In this document: positions 19,220 through 33,699 of the stretch, one piece after another
How positions within the stretch are numbered: the stretch's first letter is position 1
Layout of the letters: every line of letters begins with the position of its first letter
DNA from: Acholeplasmatales bacterium
GTDB taxonomy: Bacteria > Bacillota_I > Bacilli_A > Acholeplasmatales > Acholeplasmataceae
Reading direction: 5' to 3'
DNA: 50,519 bases
Assembly (NCBI GenBank): GCA_031284745.1
Contig: JAITXJ010000019.1
Span: 1-50,519 of the forward strand
Position numbers and translations under genes: made by a program
Notes under the pieces: model-generated
The model's input: the letters and a program-made list of their open reading frames with translations, nothing else
Database searches by the model: none
Told to the model about the DNA's origin: nothing

Positions 19220-20098
19220 ATGATATATCTTATTGGGATTGATATCGGAGGAACCAATATTAAGTATGGTTATTTCTCATTAAATGGCGAACTTTTAAGT
19301 TCCTATAAAATTCCCACCCCCGCTGAAAATGTTTTGAAAAATATTGTAAAATTTTTCAATGAAAATTTTTCCCTCCAAGATTGTCAAGGAATAGCTATCG
19401 GGGTACCAGGAATTATTGTTAATAATCAATTAATTCGCCGACCAAATAATATAAATTGTCCTTTAAATTTATTAGAAGAGCTTCAAAGTTTAATTCCTTC
19501 TTCGATTCCTCTATATTTTATTAATGATGCTAATTTAGCGGCATATGGAGAATTTTTCCATAATGAGCGCCGTCAAAGTAGTGCGGTGATGATAACTCTG
19601 GGAACCGGAGTCGGGGGTGGTATTATCATTAATAAGCAACTAATTGAAGGGCGAGCGGGAAAGGCGGGAGAAATCGGTCATATTGTGGCCCCCACAAATC
19701 ATAAAACTGTTTGTGGATGTGGTGAATTTAATCATTTAGAAAGTTATATTGGTTCTAAACAACTCATTCTTCGCTATGAAAAATTAACGAAGCAAACTCA
19801 TCAAAGTATCGCCTCGATTGTTGAGGCCTTAAAAAATAAAGATTCTTCGGCTGAACTAGTTTTTAATTATTTAGTTAAAAAGTTGATCTATCTTATTAAA
19901 ACGCTCGATACTATTTTAAATCCCGAGATTTTCATCATTGGTGGTGGGGTAGCGGAAGCTTTTAGTGAGCAATTACTACCAGCTCTGCAAAAATTCTTAG
20001 ATCCCTCGATAGATGTTTGTCTAGCTAAATTAAAAAACCAGGCCGCTCTTTACGGAGCTTATTACTATTTAAAGTATCAATTAAATCATGGGGTTTGA
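19220..20098 (+). CDS. glcK: ROK family glucokinase
   Basis: 292 residues. ROK features: the ATP-binding GIDIGGTNIKYG (residues 6-17), catalytic Asp103 in INDANLAAYGE, the GTGVGGG loop (128-134), and a zinc region GEIGHIV with His154, then CGCG (Cys165, Cys167). The usual third cysteine of CxCGxxGCxE is His172 here; His could still bind zinc. It would phosphorylate glucose to glucose-6-phosphate. ROK sugar specificity is hard to read, so another hexose is possible. AAGGAG lies upstream. It ends in TGA and overlaps rqcH by 11 nt. Confidence 0.85.
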   Translation: MIYLIGIDIGGTNIKYGYFSLNGELLSSYKIPTPAENVLKNIVKFFNENFSLQDCQGIAIGVPGIIVNNQLIRRPNNINCPLNLLEELQSLIPSSIPLYFINDANLAAYGEFFHNERRQSSAVMITLGTGVGGGIIINKQLIEGRAGKAGEIGHIVAPTNHKTVCGCGEFNHLESYIGSKQLILRYEKLTKQTHQSIASIVEALKNKDSSAELVFNYLVKKLIYLIKTLDTILNPEIFIIGGGVAEAFSEQLLPALQKFLDPSIDVCLAKLKNQAALYGAYYYLKYQLNHGV

Positions 20099-21608
20099 TG
20101 GTCTTTTCTTACAACAAATACTTTTAGAGATCAGTCCCCAAATCTTAAAAGGAAGAATTGATAGCCTTATTCCCATTAAAAGTGGTTTTGTTTTAGGCGT
20201 CTACCATCTTCAAAGTTATAATTTAATTTTTGACCTTAATCCACAAACTGCCTCCTTATATTTAACCACCACTTCTCACCCCAAGTATTTAGATAATCAT
20301 GCCTTAAATAGTTTTTTAGAATCTCTAGCGAAAATTATTTTAGGAGCAATCATTGTGAGTGTTGAACAATATTCGACTGATCGCCTGGTCATCTTTAATT
20401 TGGAAAAGAAAGACTTTCTGCTAGGAGTTGTTAATTACCATCTAATTTTTGAAATCTTTGGTAAGCGAGCTAATGTTATTTTAACCAGCGAGCAAGATCT
20501 TATTTTACATACCTATAAAAGAGATTTGAATAATCTCGGTCGAACGATTATTCCGCGGGCCCGATATGTGGTACCATTAGAAACTTCCCAATTAAAAAAG
20601 CTCGGTTTTCCCCCGGTGATTAACTACGCGGATTTTCTTTCATCTGATGATTTACAACATCATTATTTTGGACTTAGCCCCAACGCGGCTCTTTATTTTT
20701 TTAATAAGCAATTGCAACCATCACAAATTAAACTTCAACCTTGTGTTTTTCAAGATGATTACTATTTTTTTAATATATTCGATACCACGGAAGTGATTAC
20801 TTATCCAACTTTAAGCCAATTATTAGCCTCCCGCCAAAAAGAGGTTTTTAGCAATACTTATTTGAAATATTTAGATTCCACTATCACTAAATATCGTAAC
20901 ACCGCCATCAAATTACTTACCACTATTCAAACCAACACCAATGCTAATTTTACCCAAATGGCCGAAAAACTAACCCCATTTTATCAGTATTATCACCTAT
21001 ATCTAGATAGTTTTGAAGGGATTAGTTTAGATAAGAAATATACCCTTCGTCAAAATATTAATATTTTTTATCAAAAAGCTAAAAAGTATGCGGCCTCAAT
21101 TGCTAAGTTACAAAATCAATTACTTACCACGCAGGATCATTTAACTAATTTAGAAGATATTCGTTACAATTATCTCTTTATTAGCCAGTCCAATGACCCC
21201 CAAATTGAGTCGCTTTTAATCCCCTATGGTTATGCTAAAAACCATCAAAGTAGCAAAATTATTAAAAAAGGTAATTACTTATCGCGCACCTTCCAAGGGG
21301 TTAATATCTATATTGGTAAAAATGCCCCCCAAAACGAAGAACTCATTAAAAAATCCCCCGATTTTTACTGGTTTCATTTACAAAATGCCCCAGGAGCTCA
21401 TCTTATTTATGCCAGTAAAACTATCACCCCAGAAGCTATAGTATTTTGTGCAAATTTAGTAGCTAGTTTTTCTTTGAAAACTTCGACCCCTCATGTCGCG
21501 GTGGATTATACCATTTTAAAAAATGTTAAAAGAATTGCGAACCTGCATACTTTTAAAGTAAGTATAAAAAATTATCAGACAATTATCATCGATTACCTCG
21601 CAAATTAA
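20088..21608 (+). CDS. rqcH: Ribosome quality control factor RqcH (NFACT/Rqc2 homologue)
   Basis: 506 residues, a bit short of the usual 560-570. The NFACT-N domain is at about 1-170, with the Asp98-Arg99 pair in STDRLVIF at the place of the conserved DR motif needed for alanine tailing in B. subtilis RqcH. A helical/coiled-coil middle (about 280-370) is followed by the C-terminal NFACT-R domain (NIYIGKNAPQNEELI ... DFYWFHLQNAPGAH). The protein binds split 50S subunits carrying peptidyl-tRNA and adds C-terminal alanine tails that mark stalled chains. Older annotations call it a fibronectin-binding protein. No clear Shine-Dalgarno; coupling to glcK through the overlap is likely. Confidence 0.93.
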   Translation: MGFDGLFLQQILLEISPQILKGRIDSLIPIKSGFVLGVYHLQSYNLIFDLNPQTASLYLTTTSHPKYLDNHALNSFLESLAKIILGAIIVSVEQYSTDRLVIFNLEKKDFLLGVVNYHLIFEIFGKRANVILTSEQDLILHTYKRDLNNLGRTIIPRARYVVPLETSQLKKLGFPPVINYADFLSSDDLQHHYFGLSPNAALYFFNKQLQPSQIKLQPCVFQDDYYFFNIFDTTEVITYPTLSQLLASRQKEVFSNTYLKYLDSTITKYRNTAIKLLTTIQTNTNANFTQMAEKLTPFYQYYHLYLDSFEGISLDKKYTLRQNINIFYQKAKKYAASIAKLQNQLLTTQDHLTNLEDIRYNYLFISQSNDPQIESLLIPYGYAKNHQSSKIIKKGNYLSRTFQGVNIYIGKNAPQNEELIKKSPDFYWFHLQNAPGAHLIYASKTITPEAIVFCANLVASFSLKTSTPHVAVDYTILKNVKRIANLHTFKVSIKNYQTIIIDYLAN

Positions 21609-21659
21609 AAACAAAATTAATTTATAGACTCGTCTTGTTTTTGAAAAGTTGAAGGTTTT

Positions 21660-21668
21660 TGATAAAAT
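21660..21668 (+). promoter_or_regulatory. Extended -10 promoter of smpB, predicted leaderless
   Basis: TGATAAAAT after a T-tract, with TTGAAA 16 bp upstream as a possible -35. The -10 ends 6 nt before the ATG at 21675, so the expected start of transcription is the A of the start codon. There is no Shine-Dalgarno. Confidence 0.65.
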
Positions 21669-21674
21669 ATTAGT

Positions 21675-22133
21675 ATGAAGGTTATTTATATTACGCAAAA
21701 TAAAAAAGCCTACCATGATTATCATGTTTTTGATACCTATGAGGCAGGTATCCAATTAAGAGGTTCGGAGATTAAGCAAATTCGCCATAATAAGATTGTC
21801 ATCAATGATGCTTATGTGAATATTGAAAATTACCAAGCCTATTTATTGAATGCCGATATTCAAAGTGTGCAAAATTCGAATATTTTTTCTCATCAAGCCA
21901 AGCGTGAACGCAAATTGCTTTTACATAAAAACGAAATCTTGAAATTGAAAATGCAAAAAGAACGCAAGGGTTTTACGATTATTCCCTTGAAGGTATATAT
22001 TAATAATGGCTTATGCAAGGTGCAGATCGCTTTGGTTAAAGGTAAGGACAAAGTTGATAAGCGCCAAGCTTTAAAGGAAAAAGATCAAAAAGATCATTTA
22101 CAAAGAATTTTAACAAGGAGCAAAAGTTTATGA
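21675..22133 (+). CDS. smpB: SsrA (tmRNA)-binding protein SmpB
   Basis: 152 residues. Matches SmpB throughout: NKKAYHDYHVFDTYEAGI, LRGSEIKQIR, INDAYVNIEN, the HQAKRERKLLLHK block, and the basic C-terminal tail GKDKVDKRQALKEKDQKD that reaches the decoding centre. It works with tmRNA in trans-translation. No ssrA gene is visible in the window. It lies directly after rqcH, which encodes the other main nascent-chain rescue factor. Its stop overlaps the patatin ATG by 4 nt. Confidence 0.97.
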   Translation: MKVIYITQNKKAYHDYHVFDTYEAGIQLRGSEIKQIRHNKIVINDAYVNIENYQAYLLNADIQSVQNSNIFSHQAKRERKLLLHKNEILKLKMQKERKGFTIIPLKVYINNGLCKVQIALVKGKDKVDKRQALKEKDQKDHLQRILTRSKSL

Positions 22134-23059
22134 GTACAATTGGTTTAATGTTAGGCGGGGGAGGAGCTAAGGGCTCTTACCAGTTAGGAGTAATTAAAGC
22201 TTTAATTGAAGAAGGCTTATATAAGGATGTCAGTTGTGTCTCGGGTACTTCGATCGGGGCGATTAATGCTTTTTTGTTAGCCAGCATTAAAACCTTCGAT
22301 GAAATTCTGAGTATTTGGAAACTTTTAAATAATAAGAATATTTTTAAGAGTTTTCGGCGTGATTACCAAGGATTTTTTGATTTAAACGCTCTTCGCGATA
22401 CTATCGCTCAACAAATTGATTTAGATTACTTTCATACCTATCCTAAAGATATCTTTGTGACCGCCACCAAAATGCCCAATAGTGATATTTTCAATCAAGT
22501 TAACCTTTTAAAAGTAACTAGGGAAGTTTTTCATTTGAACTATTATGATGATCCCATCGATGCGACGATGGCTAGTGCGGCGATTCCTTATGTTTTTGGA
22601 ACGAAAAAAATTGGGGAAAATTATTATGTTGATGGTGGTTTAGTTGATCAAAACCCTTATGAACCACTTTTGAATATGGGTTGTGATTTAATTTTTAGTG
22701 TGCCTCTTGGTAAAAAGGTTAAAGGTTGGTTTGATTATAAATCGCGAAACTTTATCGATATTGACTTTTTAATTCCCAACCATTTTTTTGTTTCCACCAT
22801 TGGTGACTTAGCGGAGAGTGTTAATTTTTCCTATGTTTTTAAACATAAAAATTTTTGGTTAGGTTATTTTTATGCCCGGGCACTAATCCAAAAACTTTTT
22901 ACCAATAAGACCCTTTTTTATGATGAATTTGGTCATCTAGCAACCAATGCCAAACCTAGTTACAAGCGCTATAATTTAACCTTCAAAGAAATTCTTCTAG
23001 TTAAACAAGCTTTAAGGGTCTTTTTAAAGGAAGACGATGACACAAGAGCTCAAATATAA
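22130..23059 (+). CDS. Patatin-like phospholipase
   Basis: 309 residues. The patatin core is evident: the oxyanion loop LGGGGAKGSYQLG (residues 8-20), nucleophile Ser41 in GTSIGA, and the second member of the Ser-Asp dyad, Asp168, in VDGGLVDQNP. Bacterial members resemble RssA/YchK and act on phospholipids or lysophospholipids in the cytoplasm; the substrate here is unknown. There is no signal peptide. AAGGAG precedes the ATG. It overlaps smpB (4 nt) and uvrC (23 nt), so the three genes form one transcript. Confidence 0.9.
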   Translation: MSTIGLMLGGGGAKGSYQLGVIKALIEEGLYKDVSCVSGTSIGAINAFLLASIKTFDEILSIWKLLNNKNIFKSFRRDYQGFFDLNALRDTIAQQIDLDYFHTYPKDIFVTATKMPNSDIFNQVNLLKVTREVFHLNYYDDPIDATMASAAIPYVFGTKKIGENYYVDGGLVDQNPYEPLLNMGCDLIFSVPLGKKVKGWFDYKSRNFIDIDFLIPNHFFVSTIGDLAESVNFSYVFKHKNFWLGYFYARALIQKLFTNKTLFYDEFGHLATNAKPSYKRYNLTFKEILLVKQALRVFLKEDDDTRAQI

Positions 23060-24788
23060 ATTAAGTAGTCTTCCCCAAAGTAGTGGTTGCTACTTTATGA
23101 AACAAGGATCAACCATTATTTATATTGGTAAAGCTAAGAATTTAAAATCTCGAGTTAACTCTTATTTCGTCGGGTCACATAATAATAAAACCACGATGTT
23201 GGTTCAAGATATTACCGATATTGATTACATTATAGTTGACAATGATAAAGAGGCCTTTATTTTAGAAATTAATTTAATCAAGAAACATCGTCCCAAATAT
23301 AACATTTTATTAGTTGATGATAAATCTTATCCTTATATTGAAATTACGGCGGAAAAATATCCTTTATTAAAATTAAACCGCGAAGTCAAACAAAAACACA
23401 AAAATGTTTTTGGTCCCTATCCCACTAATTATTCGGCCTATTATTTGCATAAGATTCTCAATGAAATTTATCCTTTTCGTAAATGTGAAACTCTTCCCAA
23501 AAAAGAGTGTATTTACTATCACCTGCACCAATGCCTAGCTCCCTGTATTCATCCCGAGGTTGATTACGCCCCCATTGTTAATGAAGTCGTCCAAATTATG
23601 AAAGGCTCTAACCAAGAGTTATTGAGTTCTTTGCAAACACAGATGCTTAAACAAAGTGAATTATTGAATTATGAACTGGCTTTAAAAATCCGCGATCTAA
23701 TTGAACACATTAAACTGGCCCAAGTAAAACAAGTTGTTGAAAGCAGGGATTCCTTGGATCGTGATGTCATTAGTTATGCTAATAACGATAATTATTTAGC
23801 AATTAACATTTTAATGGTCCGCAAGGGTCAACTCATCGATAATTATACCCAAGTATTTAGTATTCTTGATGAAGTAGACTTAGAAATTAGTAAGATTCTC
23901 TGTGAATATTATTTGGAAAAGATTGATTACTTGGACGAAATTTTAATTAGTGATGATTTGGCTTATGAGGATTTTAGGTTATTTAATGAGAAGAAAATTA
24001 AGGTTGTCAAAAAGGGTCCGAAGTTTAAATTGTTAAGTATTAGCCATGAAAACGCCTTAAATACCTTAAATAATTATCATCTTTTACATATGGCAAAAGC
24101 CGATTTGATTCTTGATTCTCTTAAGGAATTATCGACTTACGTAAATCATCCCCTAACTTATTTAGAAATTTTTGATAATGCTCATCTTTTTGGGGTCGAT
24201 GCCGTCTCCAGTGTGGTTGTTTTTAAAAATAATAGTTTTTCCAAAAAAGATTATCGAAAGTTTCATTTAAAGACTTCGACAAATGATGATTTAAAATCTT
24301 TAAGTGAAGTTATATATCGTAGATATTTTCGTTTATTAAGCGAAAATTCACCATTACCAGATTTAGTACTGGTCGATGGTGGAACTAATCAAGTCCAAGC
24401 TGCTCAAAAAGTTTTAGAAAGTCTAGGGCTAAATATTAGTGTTTTGGGATTGGTTAAAAATGAAAATCACAAATTACGTGGCTTTATTGTTCACCAACAA
24501 GAGATTAAACTCGATAAAAATAGTTCTTTATTTAAGTTTTTACTTTCACTTTCGGAAGAAGTTCATCGTTTTACCATCAATTTCCATCGCCAAGTTCATC
24601 AAAGTTCCCCTTACTTGGGTATTTTAACAAAAATAAAATCCATCGGACCCATTACCAAAAATAAGCTTTTAAAGCGTTGTAATAGTTTAAGTGAAATAAA
24701 GGCACTAACTGATGATGAGTTGGTAGAAATTGGGCTTAATAAGGCGCAAATAACACAATTAAGAAAGGGATTGAAGTATTATGATTAA
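23037..24788 (+). CDS. uvrC: Excinuclease ABC subunit C
   Basis: 583 residues. The N-terminal GIY-YIG nuclease (SGCYFMKQGSTIIYIGKAKN, about residues 16-35, then NSYF) makes the 3' incision. The UVR helical motif that binds UvrB is at about 205-240. The central RNase H-like endonuclease domain contains LVLVDGGTNQVQAA with its catalytic Asp. The C-terminus has a helix-hairpin-helix pair (KIKSIGPITKNKLLKR ... VEIGLNKAQ). Nucleotide excision repair with UvrAB. AAGGAAG lies upstream of the ATG, which is inside the patatin gene. Confidence 0.97.
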   Translation: MTQELKYKLSSLPQSSGCYFMKQGSTIIYIGKAKNLKSRVNSYFVGSHNNKTTMLVQDITDIDYIIVDNDKEAFILEINLIKKHRPKYNILLVDDKSYPYIEITAEKYPLLKLNREVKQKHKNVFGPYPTNYSAYYLHKILNEIYPFRKCETLPKKECIYYHLHQCLAPCIHPEVDYAPIVNEVVQIMKGSNQELLSSLQTQMLKQSELLNYELALKIRDLIEHIKLAQVKQVVESRDSLDRDVISYANNDNYLAINILMVRKGQLIDNYTQVFSILDEVDLEISKILCEYYLEKIDYLDEILISDDLAYEDFRLFNEKKIKVVKKGPKFKLLSISHENALNTLNNYHLLHMAKADLILDSLKELSTYVNHPLTYLEIFDNAHLFGVDAVSSVVVFKNNSFSKKDYRKFHLKTSTNDDLKSLSEVIYRRYFRLLSENSPLPDLVLVDGGTNQVQAAQKVLESLGLNISVLGLVKNENHKLRGFIVHQQEIKLDKNSSLFKFLLSLSEEVHRFTINFHRQVHQSSPYLGILTKIKSIGPITKNKLLKRCNSLSEIKALTDDELVEIGLNKAQITQLRKGLKYYD

Positions 24789-25668
24789 GGGGATGATTTC
24801 TAATTTAAATATTAATTTACAATATTTTAGTATCGAAAATAATGGGATTAAAAATTACTACTACCTCCCTGCTCGTTTATTTTCTGTTTTTGGTCACTCG
24901 CTTTTAGATGGCCAAATAGTTGCTTTGACGATTACCGAAAATACAAAAATTATCAATCATATTCGGATGTATCAAATCGGAAGCTTCTTAACGATTTCTT
25001 ATCCGAATTCTTCGAAAATTTTGTATAATGCTCAGGCTCTTCAACGAAAGGTTTATGAAGTTTTAAAAAATAATTCCTATTATTTAATCATCGATTTTGA
25101 AGTATCGATGGCCCGTTTTCGGGAAAAGAATTTTCAAGGTCAAATCTTACAGGCTGGCTATCTTTTAGTAAAGTTAGGCCAGGGGGAACAAAATGTTCTT
25201 AGTGGTGCCCAATATACGAAGGAAATACGACGGGATAATTTATTTTTAAAACCGACAAATATGGATATCCATAATCCGAAGATTTTTAATTTGATCCGTG
25301 CCTCCAAGGAAGAGTATTTTCGGCTTTGTGTTGATTATATGGTCTTTTATGAACAATTAAAAACAATTATGAAAGAATATAATCCGAAGATTGTTATTTG
25401 GGGAGCCAATGATATTCAAACTCTCAATAATAGTTATCTCTTTAATCAGGTTGAACCCTTGACCACCAAAGATAATTTTATTAATTTATTGAAACTTCAT
25501 CGAGATTTTTATAATTTAACTGATGATCTTGGTTTATATAGTGCTTATAATTTATATTATGATAGTTCCCATGTGCAAGACCATGACGCCCTCAACGATG
25601 CCCTCAAAACGGCTTTCGTTTTAGATGCTTTTTATGGGGTTTTACGTAATATTTTTGAAGATGAATAA
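24781..25668 (+). CDS. DEDDh-type 3'-5' exonuclease-like protein
   Basis: 295 residues. The first ~95 residues are not recognised. An RNase H-like exonuclease domain follows: YLIIDFEVSMARF gives the Exo I D-x-E pair, KIVIWGANDIQTL the Exo II Asp, and QDHDALNDALKTA the Exo III His...Asp, so all DEDDh residues are present. The layout resembles KapD/Eri1-like exonucleases of Bacilli, which trim RNA or DNA 3' ends; the substrate is unknown. It overlaps uvrC by 8 nt and ends the operon. Confidence 0.75.
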   Translation: MIKGMISNLNINLQYFSIENNGIKNYYYLPARLFSVFGHSLLDGQIVALTITENTKIINHIRMYQIGSFLTISYPNSSKILYNAQALQRKVYEVLKNNSYYLIIDFEVSMARFREKNFQGQILQAGYLLVKLGQGEQNVLSGAQYTKEIRRDNLFLKPTNMDIHNPKIFNLIRASKEEYFRLCVDYMVFYEQLKTIMKEYNPKIVIWGANDIQTLNNSYLFNQVEPLTTKDNFINLLKLHRDFYNLTDDLGLYSAYNLYYDSSHVQDHDALNDALKTAFVLDAFYGVLRNIFEDE

Positions 25669-25746
25669 ATTGACTAAATTTTCGCGGTTTATCTTTGCTG
25701 TTTGGGAGTTGGGAATACTCGATAAGTCACTTCTGCTAGCAAGTTA

Positions 25747-25779
25747 GGAGTCTAAAAGTCTAGTTTTGAGCCTTTTTTT
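25747..25779 (+). terminator. Probable terminator after the exonuclease gene
   Basis: An imperfect stem (CTAAAA pairing with TTTTGAG, extended by GG/CC) is followed by seven Ts. It separates the smpB-to-exonuclease transcript from the gmk promoter. Confidence 0.45.
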
Positions 25780-25819
25780 GCTTAATATTGCAATAAAAAT
25801 TAAAATATTATATAATTAT

Positions 25820-25825
25820 TATAAT
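25820..25825 (+). promoter_or_regulatory. -10 element of gmk-rpoZ
   Basis: TATAAT (a second TATAAT lies at 25811-25816). The predicted start near 25832 gives a leader of about 12 nt that is mostly the GGGGAGG ribosome site. Confidence 0.5.
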
Positions 25826-25843
25826 CTTTACGGGGAGGGATTA

Positions 25844-26467
25844 GTGAAATTAAACCAAAAAGGATTGCTAATAATTATATCTGGACCTAGTGGTGTCGGA
25901 AAATCTACCGTTCGAAAAGCCCTCTTTAGTTTGCCAAACCATCATTTAGTTTATTCGATTTCTATGACTACGAGACCACCCAGGGATAATGAAGTTGAAG
26001 GGGTTGATTACTACTTCGTATCCCATGAAGAATTTCTTGGTCGAATTAAGGAAGACAAATTTCTTGAGTACGCTAACTTCGTCGGTAATTACTATGGAAC
26101 TCCGAAGGATATGGTGGATAATAACTTAGAAAAAGGTAACGAAGTCATCCTGGAAATCGAAGTTGATGGTGCTCAACAAGTTATGCAAAAGAAAAGAGAT
26201 GCCGTTTCCATCTTTCTAGTGCCTCCATCCAAAAAAGCCCTTATTGAACGTTTACAAACGCGGAAAACTGATTCTAAAGAGGTGATGGAAGCCCGTTTAG
26301 AAAAAGCCAACCGTGAATTTAGTTTAGCCCATAAGTATGATTATATTGTGGTTAATGATGATGTAAAAAATGCTGCCGATCGTATTATGGCGATCATTCG
26401 TGCGGAGCATGCGCGCACGGCCCGAAGTATTTACAAATATAAAAAATTATTGGAGGATGTTATATGA
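25844..26467 (+). CDS. gmk: Guanylate kinase
   Basis: 207 residues from a GTG start at 25844 with GGGGAGGG 7 nt upstream; an in-frame ATG at 25766 lies inside the upstream terminator and promoter and is rejected. P-loop ISGPSGVGKST, then the GMP-binding segments SISMTTRPPRDNEVEGVDYYFVS (split here as SISMTTRPPRDNE and VEGVDYYFVS) and FLEYANFVGNYYGTP, then VILEIEVDGAQQV and a basic lid region. Converts GMP to GDP. It overlaps rpoZ by 4 nt, an order common in Bacillota. Confidence 0.97.
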   Translation: MKLNQKGLLIIISGPSGVGKSTVRKALFSLPNHHLVYSISMTTRPPRDNEVEGVDYYFVSHEEFLGRIKEDKFLEYANFVGNYYGTPKDMVDNNLEKGNEVILEIEVDGAQQVMQKKRDAVSIFLVPPSKKALIERLQTRKTDSKEVMEARLEKANREFSLAHKYDYIVVNDDVKNAADRIMAIIRAEHARTARSIYKYKKLLEDVI

Positions 26468-26670
26468 GCAAAGGTATTGACTACCCATCGATTGATGAAT
26501 TATTAACGAAATTTAATTCAAAGTACAAATTAGCTTATTTAGCTGGTGTTTTAGCTAAATATATTAAAGAGGAAAAATTAGAATTTGATAGTTCGGATTA
26601 TCAATGTAAAAGCCCTATCGGGATTGCTTTAGAAGAAATTCTAAAAGGCAATCTTAAATCGAATATCTAA
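26464..26670 (+). CDS. rpoZ: RNA polymerase omega subunit
   Basis: 68 residues, normal for omega in Bacillota. Starts MSKGIDYPSIDELLTKFNSKY, matching the R/KYPSIDxLL pattern of the family, though the usual alanine-arginine run of the central helix is LAGVLAKYI here. GGAGG is upstream within gmk, and the ATG overlaps the gmk stop. It helps assemble and stabilise beta'. A strong terminator follows. Confidence 0.88.
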   Translation: MSKGIDYPSIDELLTKFNSKYKLAYLAGVLAKYIKEEKLEFDSSDYQCKSPIGIALEEILKGNLKSNI

Positions 26671-26690
26671 GTTGAAGGTTTATCAATAAA

Positions 26691-26720
26691 AAAAAGAATC
26701 TTCGCGGGGATTCTTTTTTT
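26691..26720. terminator. Bidirectional terminator between rpoZ and tRNA-Cys
   Basis: AAAGAATC/GATTCTTT stem with loop TTCGCGGG. A T-run follows on the plus strand and another on the minus strand, so it can end both gmk-rpoZ and tRNA-Cys transcripts. Confidence 0.85.
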
Positions 26721-26724
26721 GTTA

Positions 26725-26798
26725 TGGAGGCTCCAAACGGATTTGAACCGATGATGAGGCAGTTGCAGTGCCTTGCCTTACCACTTGGCTATAGAGCC
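26725..26798 (-). tRNA. tRNA-Cys (anticodon GCA)
   Basis: On the minus strand the acceptor GGCTCTA pairs with TGGAGCC (one wobble), followed by discriminator T and an encoded CCA. The anticodon stem AGGCA/TGCCT holds the loop CTGCAAC with anticodon GCA. The T-arm has GGTTCAAATCC. Discriminator U is expected for tRNA-Cys. Confidence 0.97.
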
Positions 26799-26805
26799 AT
26801 AAATT

Positions 26806-26814
26806 ATTATATCA
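26806..26814 (-). promoter_or_regulatory. Extended -10 promoter of tRNA-Cys
   Basis: Minus-strand TGATATAAT ending 7 nt before the mature 5' end of the tRNA, so there is almost no 5' leader to remove. Confidence 0.65.
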
Positions 26815-26948
26815 AAGTTCAAGAAATTGGTACTTTTTTGATGATTCAAGAAAATTTATCGGTAAATTAGAAGAAAATTTATGTTTCTTTTTTATACAAT
26901 TTGCGAAATATGTATCATAAGCATCAGATTTAAGAATAATTTTTTTTG

Positions 26949-26988
26949 TGATATAATATTCTTGGCACTTATAAAGTTAGAGTGCCAA
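26949..26988 (+). promoter_or_regulatory. clpB promoter with CIRCE-like HrcA operator
   Basis: Extended -10 TGATATAAT (26949-26957), then TTGGCACTT-N9-GAGTGCCAA (26962-26988). The CIRCE consensus is TTAGCACTC-N9-GAGTGCTAA: the 9-9-9 geometry and the GCACT/AGTGC cores match, with compensating G/C changes at the third and seventh positions that keep the arms paired. The predicted start of transcription lies inside the element, so HrcA binding would block initiation. hrcA is not in the window. Confidence 0.88.
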
Positions 26989-27001
26989 AAAGGAGATAAA
27001 T

Positions 27002-29125
27002 ATGAATAATAATCAACAGGAAAACTATGAAAACGATCCAAAAATCTTAGAACGTTTTGGTCGCAATTTAAATGAAGAAATAAATAAAGGAAAAATTGAC
27101 CCAGTTATTGGTCGCGATGATGAAATTCGTTCACTAATTAAAGTTCTTTCCCGCAAAACTAAAAATAATCCGGTCTTAATTGGCGAACCAGGAGTTGGTA
27201 AAACCGCGATTGTCGAAGGGTTAGCCCGTCGTATTGTGAGCAAGGATGTCCCATCGGGTTTAATTAGTAAAACAGTTTATGAATTAGATCTGGCTTCTTT
27301 GGTAGCCGGAGCGAAATACCGAGGAGAATTTGAAGAACGTTTAAAATCCGTCTTACAAAAAATAAAAGAATCATCAGGAGAAATTATCTTATTCATTGAT
27401 GAATTACATACCATTGTTGGAACCGGGGCCGCGGAGGGATCTTTGGATGCTTCTAATATGTTAAAGCCCATGCTAGCCCGTGGCGAACTTCATTGTGTAG
27501 GAGCTACCACCATCAATGAATACCGCAAATATATTGAAAAAGATGCGGCCTTGGAACGGCGATTTCAACCTATTTTAGTCAATGAACCAACGGTTGATGA
27601 TACAATCTCGATTTTACGAGGTCTAAAAGACCGTTTTGAAGCCTATCATGGCGTTCAAATCAGCGATGAAGCTTTAATCGCGGCAACTGTGCTTTCCAAT
27701 CGTTATATTACTGATCGTTTTTTACCTGATAAAGCCATCGACTTAATTGATGAAGCCTGTGCTTCTATTCGAATTCAAATTGATTCAATGCCAGTTAGTT
27801 TAGATGAGGTATTGCGAAAGATTATGGCCTTGGAAATTGAAAAAAGTGCCTTGATCAAAGAAGACAATGATTTAAGTAAAAATCGTCTTTTAGTCATTGA
27901 AAAAGAACTCACCAAATTGCGCGTTGAAGAAGCTTCCATTCGTCAAAAATGGAATCGTGATAAAGACTCTTTACATCTTATTAAAACTAAGAAAAATAAG
28001 TTGGAAGAATTACGTTTTGAATTAAATAATGCTTTTAATAAGGGCGATTATAATCGGGCTTCGGAGCTCAACTATGCCCAAATACCCTCATTAGAAAAAG
28101 AAATAAAGCGCTTAAGTAGTGATTATCAGAAAAATTCCTTGGTTAGTGAAGTTGTTGATATTAATACTATTACGGCCGTTATCTCCAAGTGGACATCAAT
28201 TCCCGTATCTAAACTTAATGAAAGTGAAAGTGCTAAATTACTTAATTTAGAAGCCGAATTACAAAAAAGAGTGATCGGCCAAGATTATGCTTTAAGTTTG
28301 GTTAGTGACGCCATAATCCGTCAGAGAAGTGGGGTAAAAAATGATGCCCGACCAATTGGAACATTCTTATTTTTAGGTCCGACTGGGGTCGGAAAAACGG
28401 AGGTCGCTAGATCGCTTGCGGATATTTTATTTTCGGGAACCTCCCATATTATTCGTTTAGATATGAGTGAATATATGGAAGCTTTTAATGTTTCTAAATT
28501 AATAGGCTCCGCTCCTGGTTATGTTGGCTATGAGGATGGTGGTCAGTTAACGGAAGCCGTTCGTCGCCAACCATATTCCATTATCTTATTTGATGAAATT
28601 GAAAAAGCTCACCCTGATGTGTATAATATTTTATTACAAATTTTCGAAGATGGTCGTTTAACAGACTCTCATGGTCGTTTAGTGGACTTTAAAAATACTA
28701 TTATTATTATGACTTCCAATTTAGCCTCGGATATCTTATTATCCACCAAAGAAAATAAAAATCAAGAAGTCTTAAAGGTAGTGGGAAAGACCTTTAAACC
28801 CGAATTAATTAACCGAATTGATGAGATCGTTATTTTTAATCCTTTGAGTTTTAATGACCAAGTTAAAATTGTTGATAAGTTAATCAATGAGTTGACCTTA
28901 AAAAATCAGGAAAATGAACTCTATATTACCTTTGATCAAAGTGTTGCCCGTTATGTGATGAAATATGGCTATGATGTCACCTATGGTGCTCGACCTTTAA
29001 AACGTTTTATTACCAAAAACATCGAAACCTTTATTGCAAAAGCCATTTTACATTCGACTATTCAACCACGAAAACATTATTTAATGTCTTATGATGGCCA
29101 ACTGGTTCTTCAAGAAATTAAATAG
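27002..29125 (+). CDS. clpB: ClpB disaggregase lacking the N-terminal domain
   Basis: 707 residues against about 860 for full ClpB. The protein begins where the first AAA+ module starts ([20 protein letters not shown]). Walker A1 GEPGVGKT (61-68), Walker B1 [10 protein letters not shown], a full-length ClpB-type coiled-coil M domain (about 280-400, including [18 protein letters not shown]), Walker A2 GPTGVGKTE (about 459-467), [12 protein letters not shown] and the C-terminal YGARPLKR are all present. The M-domain length shows ClpB rather than ClpC, and no ClpP-binding IGF loop was seen. Mycoplasma ClpB also lacks the N-domain. AAAGGAG precedes the ATG, and a CIRCE operator controls it. Confidence 0.93.
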
Positions 29126-29925
29126 TCACCTTTATTACGGCGAAATTGCTGACTTTTTGCTTGGGGAAGTTTAAATAATTTAGTAGCTAATAAATAGATA
29201 AAATATAGGGCAACAATGATTATAACCCCTAAAAGACAAATCGCCATCAAATAAATAATATTTATATGATACCAACCACCAAGGATTCTTTCATTTCCTA
29301 AAGCAAAAAGTGTGGTCATGGGAAAGCCAGGATTGGGTTTAACCGCAAAAAAATAATTAGCTTTTTCATATTCTGGCAGATCAACCCTATTCATTAAATT
29401 GCATAGGGGATTGGCGAGCAAAAACATTATAACGGTTAAAGTACTGGTTAAAACGATTGTTTTAATATTTAAGTAAAACATCCCTTTCACTAGTGCAAAA
29501 ATAGGCATGACAATTAATAAGAGGTGTCCAACAAAATAAGCTAGTCCATGAAAAGAGATAATCGTTGCGTATTGTTCCACACCACCGGCGAAGATTAAGG
29601 CTAAAATGGCGGCTGGCAAATTAATGGTAAAGCCATAAGAATAGAGAACTTTCGAACGAAAGATAAAAGCAAATAAAAAGAAAAAGTTGGCAAAGTGACA
29701 TAATTGCAAAGGAATCGCATCCGGCAAAAAAGCCCAATTATTTTGTAGTTCTAAATTGATGTTTCTTAATAAAAGAATTAAAATACCTAAAATACTTAAA
29801 ATGATGCCGATAATTTGATTAGTTTTTTGAGAAGATTTTCGTGTCAGTAATAGTAAGGTCGCCACCACGATAAAAGGGGCAATTATCGCTATAAAATGAA
29901 AGGCACTCCACAGATGAAATTGCAT
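29110..29925 (-). CDS. YwaF/TIGR02206-family integral membrane protein
   Basis: 271 residues from the ATG at 29925, which has GGAGG 6 nt upstream on the minus strand; the longer reading frame up to 30045 has no ribosome site. About seven hydrophobic segments. Family-like features are a polar PLQLCHFANFFFL motif inside a membrane helix, a conserved NPGFP loop, and WYHINIIYL near the C-terminus. Function is unknown in the family. It converges on clpB, and the two 3' ends overlap by 16 nt with no terminator between them. Confidence 0.75.
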   Translation of the reverse strand: MQFHLWSAFHFIAIIAPFIVVATLLLLTRKSSQKTNQIIGIILSILGILILLLRNINLELQNNWAFLPDAIPLQLCHFANFFFLFAFIFRSKVLYSYGFTINLPAAILALIFAGGVEQYATIISFHGLAYFVGHLLLIVMPIFALVKGMFYLNIKTIVLTSTLTVIMFLLANPLCNLMNRVDLPEYEKANYFFAVKPNPGFPMTTLFALGNERILGGWYHINIIYLMAICLLGVIIIVALYFIYLLATKLFKLPQAKSQQFRRNKGDYLIS

Positions 29926-29946
29926 AGAACCTCCAAATGCAATATA

Positions 29947-29955
29947 ATTATAACA
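29947..29955 (-). promoter_or_regulatory. Extended -10 promoter of the YwaF-like gene
   Basis: Minus-strand TGTTATAAT. The predicted start near 29940 gives a short leader containing GGAGG. Confidence 0.6.
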
Positions 29956-30077
29956 AAATTTTTTTCCAAAAATAAGAAGAAGATAAAAATTACTTTTGGC
30001 TAGTATAACTTTTATGATTTTTCTTTTAAAGCCGAAATTGTTCATTAAGATAATATATTTTTTTATTAATATTTATT

Positions 30078-30086
30078 TGATATAAT
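30078..30086 (+). promoter_or_regulatory. Extended -10 promoter, predicted leaderless
   Basis: TGATATAAT whose last base is 6 nt before the ATG at 30093. The expected start of transcription is the A of the ATG, and no Shine-Dalgarno lies upstream. Confidence 0.65.
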
Positions 30087-30092
30087 TTAAGT

Positions 30093-31058
30093 ATGAAAAG
30101 ATTATTATTAGTATTAACAATTCTATGTTCAACCTTTCTCTTAATTGCTTGTAGCAACCAATTTTCCTATGTTTTATTAGCCAATACCGGTGGTACTGTT
30201 AGCGGCAGCATCAGTGGTACCTATGCGAAAGGAACTACTTTATCTTGTGGGGCGCAGGCTGATGAAGGATTTTATTTTGATGGTTGGTATTTAAACAATA
30301 AACTGGTCAGTACCGAAAACCCCTATAATTTTACTTTGACCAAAAACTCACAGATGGTTGGTCGATTTTCTTATACTGAATATAACATCATTTATCATCT
30401 AGGTTCACAAGGAACCCTAGGCCCTAATAGTCCATTAACCTTTACCATTAACAGCAATTTTGATTTAGAAAATGCCGTAGCTAATACTGGCTATCTCTTT
30501 AATGGTTGGTATAGTGAAAGTAATTTCGTTCATCAGATAACTCATATTTCCCGAGGAACCAATCATGATGTCGAACTATGGGCAAAATATAGTCAAACTA
30601 ATGCCTTTGAGCAATTATGGTTATCTTATTATCCCAACATGACCCCTCCTCCTCATTTGAATTTCTTTGAAGTCCTCGAACCAAGTCCTACTCCTCCGGC
30701 TTCCAATTACCAATTTATGGCTGGTGGTTTAGCAACGGTACAGGAATTCAATCAATGGATTAACAGTGTCGGAGGTATCGATATGACTTCGGTGATGCTC
30801 AGCGCCATGGAAACTCAGTTACAATCCATTCTTCCCGGCTTTGCTTTCCCCGATGGTTATGACATCGGGATAAAATATTATGTAACTAATTTTGGAACTG
30901 GACCAATGGCAATTTATATTGAAGATGATATGGAAGAAACCGTCGCAGCATTTTTAGCTTCTCTTCCCGCCGAACAACGAGCTCTTGTGGAAATTTTGTT
31001 TGCTGGTCTGACCAACGGCATTGATCTTTCGGTTGCTAATTATAGCGTAGTTGGTTAA
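30093..31058 (+). CDS. Lipoprotein with InlB B-type (Listeria-Bacteroides) repeats
   Basis: 321 residues. A type II signal peptide with lipobox LLIAC (lipidated Cys20) is followed by two beta-grasp InlB B-repeat-like units, seen as GFYFDGWYLNN (about 59-69) and GYLFNGWYSESN with following LWAKY (about 130-170). The C-terminal ~150 residues (from PPPHLNFFEVL) are not recognised; they include a proline-rich hinge and a stretch EETVAAFLASLPAEQRALV. It is expected to sit on the outer face of the membrane as an adhesin-like or binding protein. No Shine-Dalgarno; predicted leaderless. Confidence 0.82.
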   Translation: MKRLLLVLTILCSTFLLIACSNQFSYVLLANTGGTVSGSISGTYAKGTTLSCGAQADEGFYFDGWYLNNKLVSTENPYNFTLTKNSQMVGRFSYTEYNIIYHLGSQGTLGPNSPLTFTINSNFDLENAVANTGYLFNGWYSESNFVHQITHISRGTNHDVELWAKYSQTNAFEQLWLSYYPNMTPPPHLNFFEVLEPSPTPPASNYQFMAGGLATVQEFNQWINSVGGIDMTSVMLSAMETQLQSILPGFAFPDGYDIGIKYYVTNFGTGPMAIYIEDDMEETVAAFLASLPAEQRALVEILFAGLTNGIDLSVANYSVVG

Positions 31059-31077
31059 AACTTATCTTTAAAAAAAT

Positions 31078-31108
31078 AAAAGGCACGAATTTCGTGCCTT
31101 TTATTTTT
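31078..31108. terminator. Bidirectional terminator between the lipoprotein gene and rpmF
   Basis: AAAAGGCACGA/TCGTGCCTTTT perfect 11-bp stem with a three-base loop and T-runs on both strands. Confidence 0.9.
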
Positions 31109-31114
31109 GAAGAA

Positions 31115-31309
31115 TTACTTTTCTTCTTTTTTGGTCTTTTTAGGGAGAACCAATTGCCCTTTGTAGTAACCACTATTAGGAGTAACTCGGTGGGGAAGAG
31201 TATATTCTCCAGTGTTAGGACAAACAACTAATGTTGGTGCCTCTAATTTATAGTGACTACGACGGCGTCTTTTTTGCGCTTTACTGTGTCGGCGAAAAGG
31301 AATAGCCAT
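31115..31309 (-). CDS. rpmF: 50S ribosomal protein L32, cysteine-depleted form
   Basis: 64 residues. The N-terminus [22 protein letters not shown] is classic L32. The usual zinc ribbon (CPNCGEY ... CKNCGSY) reads CPNTGEY ... TPNSGYY: the first Cys remains, the other three are Thr, Thr and Ser. So it should not bind zinc in the normal way, like the Cys-less paralogues that some Bacillota use under zinc limitation. A Cys-containing copy elsewhere in the genome cannot be excluded. AAGGAG lies upstream; it is co-transcribed with yceD, 16 nt away. Confidence 0.95.
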
Positions 31310-31325
31310 ATAATCTCCTTTTTAT

Positions 31326-31700
31326 CTAAATCTCTTCAATATTTACCGAAGAGTGATAAACAACGTACGGTTTTTCACTGACTATGTAACCATATACTAA
31401 CTCATCCAAATCAATCTCTTCCGTTAGTGGATAATCACAATCAAGTGTTTTACCGAATTTTAAGTCTTCCATAACATCCAAATTAGATTCTACTCCTTTT
31501 CCGGTTACATCACAAGCCAAAACTAATTGACAAGTAATATTCAAACCCAAATCAAGAATATCCTCACTTTTCTGATAGTCGACTTTTACCTTAACCATTT
31601 TAAAGGCTAAGATGTCGATGGATTTTGCTAAATATTTTGTCAAATCACACTCATATTCAATTGTTCCTGTATTCATTAAATCCAAGTACCGCAAAACCAT
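31326..31700 (-). CDS. yceD: YceD/DUF177 family protein
   Basis: 124 residues, short for the family (about 170). YceD proteins are nearly always encoded just before rpmF, as here, and are linked to large-subunit assembly or 23S rRNA maturation. Visible family features are the LNITCQLVLACDVTG segment, where the conserved Cys pair is spaced C-x6-C, and an acidic C-terminal TEEIDLDELVYGYI. The N-terminal part is reduced. The ATG follows the -10 by exactly 6 nt with no Shine-Dalgarno, so the mRNA is predicted leaderless. Assignment leans on gene order. Confidence 0.75.
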   Translation of the reverse strand: MVLRYLDLMNTGTIEYECDLTKYLAKSIDILAFKMVKVKVDYQKSEDILDLGLNITCQLVLACDVTGKGVESNLDVMEDLKFGKTLDCDYPLTEEIDLDELVYGYIVSEKPYVVYHSSVNIEEI

Positions 31701-31706
31701 ACAATG

Positions 31707-31715
31707 ATTATATCA
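31707..31715 (-). promoter_or_regulatory. Extended -10 promoter of yceD-rpmF, predicted leaderless
   Basis: Minus-strand TGATATAAT ending 6 nt before the ATG at 31700, the same geometry as at 30078 on the other strand. Confidence 0.65.
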
Positions 31716-31963
31716 AAATCTCCAAATAATAAATTAATAAAGTATTCTTGATCCTGACAAATATCGAACTACCACTCGATCTTTTAAATTATAATAACCA
31801 AACTTACCAATAATTATCATCTTTAAGCCTATAATCAAAAATGATTAGCAGATTTAATTTTCGATGAAAAATTATAATTTTTCTTAAATTACTAATTATT
31901 AGTTAATAATAACATTTTTATTTATAAATAATGTCAGAAATGATAAAAAATGCAAAAAAGTAG

Positions 31964-31969
31964 TATAAT
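31964..31969 (+). promoter_or_regulatory. -10 element of the unknown two-gene module
   Basis: TATAAT. The predicted start near 31976 gives a leader of about 10 nt with GAGG before the ATG at 31986. The ~250 bases between this and the yceD promoter are very AT-rich, with short inverted repeats (ACTAATTATTAGT) and no gene. Confidence 0.5.
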
Positions 31970-31985
31970 TATTAATGAGGTTTTT

Positions 31986-32474
31986 ATGCCAAGAAAACAA
32001 ACAGTTCAAGAAGAATTACGTTACGAAGACTTAAATGAAGAAAGAAAAACATTTCAAAGTGTAGTTGATAAAAAAAGCACTACTCATTTTAAGTATAATA
32101 TTTATATTGTCATAAAAATTGAAAAAAGGACCGATGGCAAAAATGGCTTTAAGGATATTTTTCATGTCCTTGATGACCTTAGAAAGGCTCTGCCGGAATC
32201 CGAAAGAGCCGCCCTTTTTTGTAACGACCTGAATTTTCGTTCCACGATTAAGCAAACTATTACTTATCCAAAGAAATGGTTTAATGATATTCATCTTTTA
32301 GAAAAGTATTACTATCAACTTTCTAAAAGTTTAAATCTTTTTCTTTATAATGAAGAGGGTACTAATCGTTTTATTGAAAGGGATTACCGGGTTATCGACT
32401 ATGATGTCTATATCACTGATGTTGAAGCTAATAAAGTTTTGCCAATTGATGAAATTCAAGAGTTGTTTAATTAA
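31986..32474 (+). CDS. Protein of unknown function, first gene of a two-gene module
   Basis: 162 residues from the ATG at 31986 with GAGG upstream; an in-frame ATG at 31950 precedes the -10 and is rejected. Not recognised. The sequence is soluble and charged, with a mixed alpha/beta look: a strand FKYNIYIVIKIEKR (about 35-48), helices DIFHVLDDLRKAL and IHLLEKYYYQLSKSLNLFL, then DYRVIDYDVYITDVE. No signal peptide, membrane helix or catalytic motif is visible. Its stop and the next start overlap (TAATG), so both proteins are probably made together. Confidence 0.7.
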   Translation: MPRKQTVQEELRYEDLNEERKTFQSVVDKKSTTHFKYNIYIVIKIEKRTDGKNGFKDIFHVLDDLRKALPESERAALFCNDLNFRSTIKQTITYPKKWFNDIHLLEKYYYQLSKSLNLFLYNEEGTNRFIERDYRVIDYDVYITDVEANKVLPIDEIQELFN

Positions 32475-33172
32475 TGTCTTATAAGAGGGAGCTCTCCTTT
32501 GAACAAGTTAATAAATTAGAATCGATCTATAAAAACTCATTTATTTACCATGGCACCAATAAAGTTGTCAAAAATGAGAATTTTACCCTTTTACTACACG
32601 CTAATAACCAGATGTCCATCGATGGGGATAATACCTCAAGTATTATTTATGATATTGTTTCAACCCTAGGAATTGAAGATTTTGACGGAATATTTTGTAG
32701 TGAAGCGAAAGATGAAGATAATATTGGCTTTACTTCCATTGTGGCGGTGGAGGTGCGAAGTAATAACTACTTAGCCTTACCAAATCCCTTTGAAGTTGAT
32801 TTGATCAACGATAACGAAGTAATTAAATCCGGTCGAATTTTAACGAAAGTTTTACCTTATAAATTTTATTTTCTTAATCGTCAAGAAAACGCTTTTTTGA
32901 ATAAGAATAAAGTTAGTACTTTAAAATTACGAGTTTTAAGTTATAATACGGTGATCCTTAGTTTATTAAATGTTACACAAGTGAAGTTTCCCGTCTTTAT
33001 TGAACCTTTTTGTCATCGAGATGCTTACATTAAAAATCTGTCCGAACAAGCTAAGCGTTATGTAGATGTCGTAATGATTGATAAAATATCCAAAAATATT
33101 GGCTATCTGTATGCTAAAATTATTGCTCGTTATTTGATGATCATTAAAAAACAAACCCTGGCTAAAAGATAA
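32474..33172 (+). CDS. Protein of unknown function, second gene of the two-gene module
   Basis: 232 residues, translationally coupled to the gene before it. Not recognised with confidence. Near the N-terminus FIYHGTNKVVKNENFTLL recalls the H-G-T strand of ADP-ribosyltransferase-like folds, and IVAVEVRSNNYLALPNPF has the look of their Y-containing strand, but I cannot place a catalytic Glu. The C-terminal third (EPFCHRDAYIKNLSEQAKRYVDVVMIDKI and the following helix, quoted here in parts) is basic and helical. No signal or membrane segment. The adjacent nusB has its own promoter, so the pair is a separate unit. Confidence 0.65.
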   Translation: MSYKRELSFEQVNKLESIYKNSFIYHGTNKVVKNENFTLLLHANNQMSIDGDNTSSIIYDIVSTLGIEDFDGIFCSEAKDEDNIGFTSIVAVEVRSNNYLALPNPFEVDLINDNEVIKSGRILTKVLPYKFYFLNRQENAFLNKNKVSTLKLRVLSYNTVILSLLNVTQVKFPVFIEPFCHRDAYIKNLSEQAKRYVDVVMIDKISKNIGYLYAKIIARYLMIIKKQTLAKR

Positions 33173-33237
33173 GCAATTATCATTTTAAAGTTTAATTGTA
33201 TTTTAAAAGACATAACTTGGGCGTTTATCTCTTTTTT

Positions 33238-33246
33238 TGATAAAAT
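33238..33246 (+). promoter_or_regulatory. Extended -10 promoter of nusB-xseAB-dxs, predicted leaderless
   Basis: TGATAAAAT after a seven-base T-tract, with TTGGGC 18 bp upstream as a weak -35. The -10 ends 6 nt before the GTG at 33253. Confidence 0.65.
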
Positions 33247-33252
33247 AATCTT

Positions 33253-33699
33253 GTGTCTAAGTTAGTATTTCGGGAAGATCTTATCAAAAAACTTTATATC
33301 TTTGATTTATTAGGAGCCAAAAATTACTCAAAGCAAACTGCGCCTGATTTTTTAATTGAAGTTGATGACGAAGAAAAAGATTTCCCCTTAATTTTAAGCG
33401 ACGCTGATCAAGAAAACTTTTTTCAAATTACTCAAAACATTTCCCAAATCGATGAAATCATTAAAGATTGTTTAATTGAATATCATTTGGCTCGTTTATC
33501 TTATCTAGATCGGGCGATCATCCGCCTGGCGACTTATAGCCTGGTTTTTGAACCTCAAAAAGCTAGTTCTTTTATTTTTACCGAAATGTTAGAATTAACT
33601 AAAACCTACACGGATTTAGGTGATTCGAAACAAAAGAATTTCAATCATCGTTTATTAACAAATATTAAAGCTAAAATTGGTAGGGTCGACAATGGATAA
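33253..33699 (+). CDS. nusB: Transcription antitermination factor NusB
   Basis: 148 residues starting at a GTG directly after the promoter. The all-helical NusB fold is recognised from its C-terminal half: LARLSYLDRAIIRLATYSL (about 78-96) and FTEMLELTKTYTDLGDSKQKNF ending in NHRLLTNI (about 116-140). NusB with S10 (NusE) promotes rRNA antitermination. The N-terminal half, with ISQIDEIIKDCL, is divergent. Followed by xseA, xseB and dxs, the standard Bacillota order. It overlaps xseA by 8 nt. Confidence 0.9.
   Translation: MSKLVFREDLIKKLYIFDLLGAKNYSKQTAPDFLIEVDDEEKDFPLILSDADQENFFQITQNISQIDEIIKDCLIEYHLARLSYLDRAIIRLATYSLVFEPQKASSFIFTEMLELTKTYTDLGDSKQKNFNHRLLTNIKAKIGRVDNG

Follow-up and report, generated by a model that had tools for sequence, protein, structure and literature searches.

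Four genes with one promoter-to-start spacing

The window, the whole 50,519-nucleotide stretch of an Acholeplasmatales genome analysed here, contains four genes in which direct reading places an extended -10 promoter element exactly 6 nt before the start codon. The element of smpB lies at 21660–21668 on the plus strand, where positions 21660–21677 read TGATAAAAT-ATTAGT-ATG. A lipoprotein gene on the same strand has its element at 30078–30086 (30078–30095, TGATATAAT-TTAAGT-ATG), the gene before rpmF on the minus strand at 31707–31715 (31715–31698, TGATATAAT-CATTGT-ATG), and nusB on the plus strand at 33238–33246 (33238–33255, TGATAAAAT-AATCTT-GTG). By direct reading and pattern search, the -10 hexamer is TAAAAT or TATAAT at all four sites, with TGA directly before it. 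A consensus scan also places a -35-like TTGAAA 16 nt before the smpB -10 hexamer (21641–21646, plus strand), weak evidence when taken alone. Reading of the sequence found no Shine–Dalgarno motif in position at any of the four sites. Both the exact gap and the missing Shine–Dalgarno motif had been reported for these genes in an initial annotation, and both hold.

The identities of three of the four genes come from profile matches. smpB (21675–22133, plus strand; Pfam SmpB, E = 2.5e-51; NCBIfam equivalog above cut-off) has an N terminus that can be aligned with those of relatives, and its ATG at 21675 is the predicted first base of the mRNA. The lipoprotein gene (30093–31058, plus strand), with Flg_new/InlB-type repeats (Pfam Flg_new_2 and Flg_new), is predicted to be leaderless from its ATG at 30093, and nusB (33253–33699, plus strand; Pfam NusB, E = 6.8e-10; TIGR01951, E = 4e-14, below the curated cut-off) from its GTG at 33253. 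The fourth, also predicted to be leaderless, from an ATG at 31700, encodes a 124-aa protein (31326–31700, minus strand) that stands in the yceD position and is named from that position only; the protein had no match in Pfam, in NCBIfam or among viral contigs. It is followed by rpmF (ribosomal protein L32; 31115–31309, minus strand; Pfam Ribosomal_L32p, E = 4e-24), the second gene of the unit, which has its own Shine–Dalgarno sequence, AGGAG. The lipoprotein gene forms a divergent pair with a minus-strand gene starting at 30045; 47 nt separate the two start codons, but the minus-strand box is TATATT. That neighbour (29110–30045) and a gene on L146 that belongs to the same-spacing class described below encode two proteins of the Pfam TMEM164 family in one bacterial genome.

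The 6-nt gap exceeds chance at reading-frame starts

The spacing was surveyed in a 379-kb sample made up of the window and a further 329 kb of its genome (34% GC; 39% of a 0.97-Mb genome), which holds 303 ORFs whose 5′ end is closed. Only the first possible start of each ORF was considered. TANAAT ended 6 nt before 21 of the 303 starts, whereas the remaining gaps between 0 and 13 averaged 1.77 (Poisson, ~6e-16). Dinucleotide shuffles averaged 2.1 at gap 6 and never exceeded 7. The extended box TGNTANAAT behaved in the same way, with 11 ORF starts at gap 6 and 0–3 at each other gap from 0 to 13. The 21 starts comprise 18 ATG and 3 GTG codons, and about two members of the set are expected by chance.

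The genome-wide scan proposed in the initial annotation fails in its raw form and succeeds when restricted to ORF starts. Searched anywhere in the genome, TGNTANAAT-N6-NTG occurs 20 times at gap 6 and 22 times at gap 5, with no peak, because AT-rich background masks the signal; a raw scan for TGNTANAAT-N{3,12}-ATG was likewise swamped by background, and its reversed-pattern control is not composition-matched. The peak emerges once the scan is limited to ORF starts or to sites with GT before the ATG. The raw counts are what could be expected if TANAAT were simply common near ATG in AT-rich intergenic DNA and the matching cases had been picked by the reader, and four cases alone would be weak evidence against such an explanation. 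Yet the peak falls exactly at gap 6 and at ORF starts only, at a height that no shuffle approached; the spacing is conserved in a congener (see below); and the GT-bearing form of the pattern, TANAATN4GTATG, occurs 28 times genome-wide when TANAATN5GTATG occurs 4 times. Chance is thus refuted as an explanation of the class overall, and we give it almost no credence, although individual members can still be chance occurrences.

Translation signals and position in transcription units

A Shine–Dalgarno match of ≥4 nt is present before 1 of the 21 gap-6 starts and before 214 of 282 other genes (76%; Fisher, 5e-11), the latter scored at their best candidate start, which somewhat favours them; such matches also precede 15% of internal ATGs. 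The class is concentrated at the heads of units, with 18 of 122 first-in-unit genes and 2 of 176 genes within units (Fisher, 4e-6). Pfam domains in several of the predicted proteins (miaA, S4, His_Phos and CTP_transf) begin at residues 1–4, which supports the predicted start codons. A search of the whole assembly (G000) found no SSU rRNA, a gap that is common in draft metagenome assemblies.

Two divergent gene pairs have both members in the class, miaA/cinA (L032:14436–14481) and an unnamed 541-aa gene/aminotransferase pair (L041:16622–16667). In each, exactly 44 nt separate the two start codons, and two full promoters are packed into the tiny intergenic region.

GT before ATG as a local signature

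Within the gap-6 class, T occupies position -1 in 19 of 21 members and G occupies position -2 in 13, and +1 is a purine in all 21, as is guaranteed by the selection of ATG and GTG starts. The T at -1 and the purine at +1 are compatible with transcription starting on the start codon. As T at -1 and G at -2 are frequent, the pattern TANAAT-N4-GTATG isolates the class: it occurs 18 times in the 379-kb sample, against 0–3 at other spacings. Among its 28 genome-wide occurrences, 24 sit where an ORF of at least 124 aa has its first start codon, and the remaining 4 open ORFs of at most 56 aa. The frequent GT is a mild local signature of the class.

Two further readings of this dinucleotide were considered. 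TATAAT-N4-GT-ATG in this genus might be one composite signal in which GT holds transcription initiation to the start codon and thereby sets the reading start, giving a lineage-specific fused transcription–translation start absent from leaderless genes elsewhere; we regard this as unlikely. It is quite unlikely, too, that the mRNAs are only nearly leaderless, with transcription beginning 1–3 nt upstream, for instance at the frequent -2 G to give 5′-GUAUG. The enrichment of that G, present in 13 of 21 class members and at the matching position of 13 of 58 distal promoters (Fisher, 0.002), speaks for such a start. However, a -2 start site would be only 5 nt away from the -10 element, whereas 6–7 intervening bases were mapped in Mesoplasma florum (PMC7745072), and the distal promoters of this genome prefer purines at position 7 and G at position 8.

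Spacing shared with a congener

Conservation was assessed in a congener (G001; 657 kb; protein identities mostly 40–60%) through 119 orthologue pairs with usable starts. Four pairs, nusB, rarA, priA and a Gfo/Idh oxidoreductase, have gap 6 in both genomes, 5 have it in the window's genome only and 4 in the congener only; sharing therefore extends to 4 of the 9 sampled cases in the window's genome (Fisher, 0.001). No pair shares a gap of 2–5 or 7–12. Two more genes from the genome-wide set, coaD and one for an ABC transporter, have the same spacing in the two genomes, and GtrA has gap 6 in the congener too, with an uncertain start alignment. The congener's nusB reads TGGTAAAAT-ATAACT-ATG. Flanking bases differ between orthologues, so the -10 box and its distance from the start codon appear to have been kept by selection between these two genomes. 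By the gap-6 test, neither smpB nor the rpmF-linked gene is leaderless in the congener.

Across 198 genomes of the same taxonomic class, the window's genome is the densest in TANAATN4GTATG, as judged by eye, with 28 occurrences in 0.97 Mb. In the scan of relatives, the congener comes next with 24 in 1.3 Mb, but it also has 11 at gap 7. Counts at gap 6 do not usually exceed those at gap 7 among these 198 genomes, most of which show no excess. Two genomes that might have indicated a wider spread were rejected: the gap-6 peak in G014 stems mostly from one repeated insertion sequence, and G038 has a raised pattern count but, over 131 kb, no matching peak at gap 6 among its ORF starts.

The G014 element (L071–L080), present in multiple copies, is an insertion sequence encoding a DDE transposase (Pfam DDE_Tnp_1 and DUF772), with ends GGGACTGTAA and TTACAGTCCC. 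A terminator-like hairpin and T run, a possible shield against read-through, stand just before TGGTATAATTATAGTATG, which is followed by a predicted leaderless transposase gene. A literature search on this insertion sequence and on uncultured Bacilli returned nothing relevant. A separate arrangement is seen at lepA, which is directly leaderless by prediction in the window's species, unlike in the congener. There, the -10 element and 6-nt gap lead to an ATG that opens an upstream frame of 9 codons (ATGAAAGAAATGGAAATTATTAATGGATAG). The stop codon of this frame overlaps the start of lepA, and the frame is possibly a leaderless leader peptide with coupled restart.

Gene context of smpB

In the window (20088–22133), smpB, a trans-translation gene, comes straight after an NFACT/RqcH-like gene of ribosome quality control. 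In 30 relatives, smpB mostly sits close behind another gene, often with a Shine–Dalgarno sequence, and in four relatives read outside the genus the preceding gene encodes an FTSPIRRYPDL-type motif of RNase R, recognised by eye. The congener's smpB has no same-strand neighbour in the stretch read and is preceded by TATAAT and then a leader of ~19 nt containing GAGGT. Leaderless smpB would thus be particular to the window's species. The gene probably became leaderless after leaving an RNase R unit.

Functions of the class

Profile matches identify the class members as mgtE (magnesium transport), GtrA, miaA, cinA, lepA, a histidine phosphatase, a coaD-like gene, nusB, an hpt-like phosphoribosyltransferase, a pseudouridine synthase, a glutamyl/glutaminyl-tRNA synthetase (glnS), an ABC transporter, an aminotransferase, ispH, a PHP/exonuclease protein, glgA, an oxidoreductase, a TMEM164-like protein, a DUF4011 helicase, a HAD protein, rarA, an M20 peptidase, an acyltransferase and an rlmD-like gene; priA was recognised by eye. 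The link that the initial annotation drew to genes of ribosome rescue, ribosome assembly and transcription factors is not supported genome-wide, where the class is functionally mixed. An initiation mode dedicated to such genes could claim smpB, nusB, lepA, glnS, miaA and the pseudouridine synthase; we nonetheless consider it very improbable, given that transport, isoprenoid, glycogen, coenzyme, replication and membrane genes belong to the class as well and that the window's smpB is not leaderless in relatives.

Discussion

We conclude that about 20 genes in 379 kb, including the four in the window, are very probably leaderless and transcribed from sigma-A promoters whose -10 element ends 6 nt before the start codon. 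The class amounts to about 7% of ORFs and about 15% of first-in-unit genes. RNA polymerase usually starts at a purine 7 nt downstream of the -10 element. With a sigma-A -10 element, often extended (TGN), ending 6 nt before the start codon, transcription would begin on the A or G of that codon and yield an mRNA without a leader. Ribosomes would then start on the 5′-terminal AUG or GUG without Shine–Dalgarno contact, presumably as intact 70S particles carrying initiator tRNA. We infer the transcription start base, the promoter activity and the 70S initiation from the arrangement of the sequence; 70S initiation on a 5′-terminal AUG has precedents in other bacteria (cited in PMC12340547). Longer leaders could arise in addition from an unseen upstream promoter.

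The class has every sequence-level feature of the leaderless genes led by TANNNT. In the sections of Zheng et al. (2011, PMC3160421) drawn on here, 207 of 953 bacterial genomes have TANNNT ~12 bp upstream of start codons. Among the 209 Firmicutes, 56 do so, at 2.4–16.6% of their genes, a range within which the ~7% of ORFs in the present genome falls; in five Mycoplasma genomes such genes average 18.3%. As in those genes, the first T of the box here lies at about -12 from a start codon that lacks a Shine–Dalgarno sequence, and the box resembles the TAtAAT of low-GC Firmicutes, which in Lactococcus is preceded by TG. The Firmicutes cases in those sections are Lactobacillales and Mycoplasma, whereas the present genome belongs to a different lineage, and no frequent GT preceding ATG is described there.

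A -10 element adjacent to ORFs is also the arrangement in Deinococcus-Thermus, and in Deinococcus it acts experimentally as a leaderless-gene promoter that requires the spacing (PMC12340547). That phylum is high in GC and uses the arrangement for about one-third of genes (PMC12340547), whereas here it serves a minority beside dominant Shine–Dalgarno use. Further comparisons are Mesoplasma florum and Mycoplasma gallisepticum, small-genome relatives among the Bacilli with nine cases each of 5′ ends on start codons (PMC7745072, PMC4245973). Those cases were mapped on RNA, whereas ours are predicted, and they are fewer than the ~20 found in 39% of the present genome. In the Mollicute M. florum, 6 or 7 bases separate most start sites from the -10 element, and some start sites fall on start codons (PMC7745072).

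Collectively, the spacing, the missing Shine–Dalgarno sequence, the first-in-unit position and the conservation of a subset in the congener strongly support the leaderless half of the earlier proposal of a real second initiation mode. Its novelty is not upheld: leaderless genes with a TANNNT box at about -12 have been described in many bacteria (PMC3160421, PMC12340547, PMC7745072), and genes of this architecture had been predicted or mapped before in Actinobacteria, Deinococcus-Thermus, lactococci, Mycoplasma and Mesoplasma. Our general view of how bacteria initiate translation is unchanged. The finding adds an uncultured small-genome lineage of Bacilli to those that mix Shine–Dalgarno and leaderless expression, and provides a simple rule for start-codon correction and promoter finding in the draft genomes of this lineage. 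Close species pairs in which smpB is leaderless in one member and leadered in the other would be useful for studying how leaders are gained and lost.
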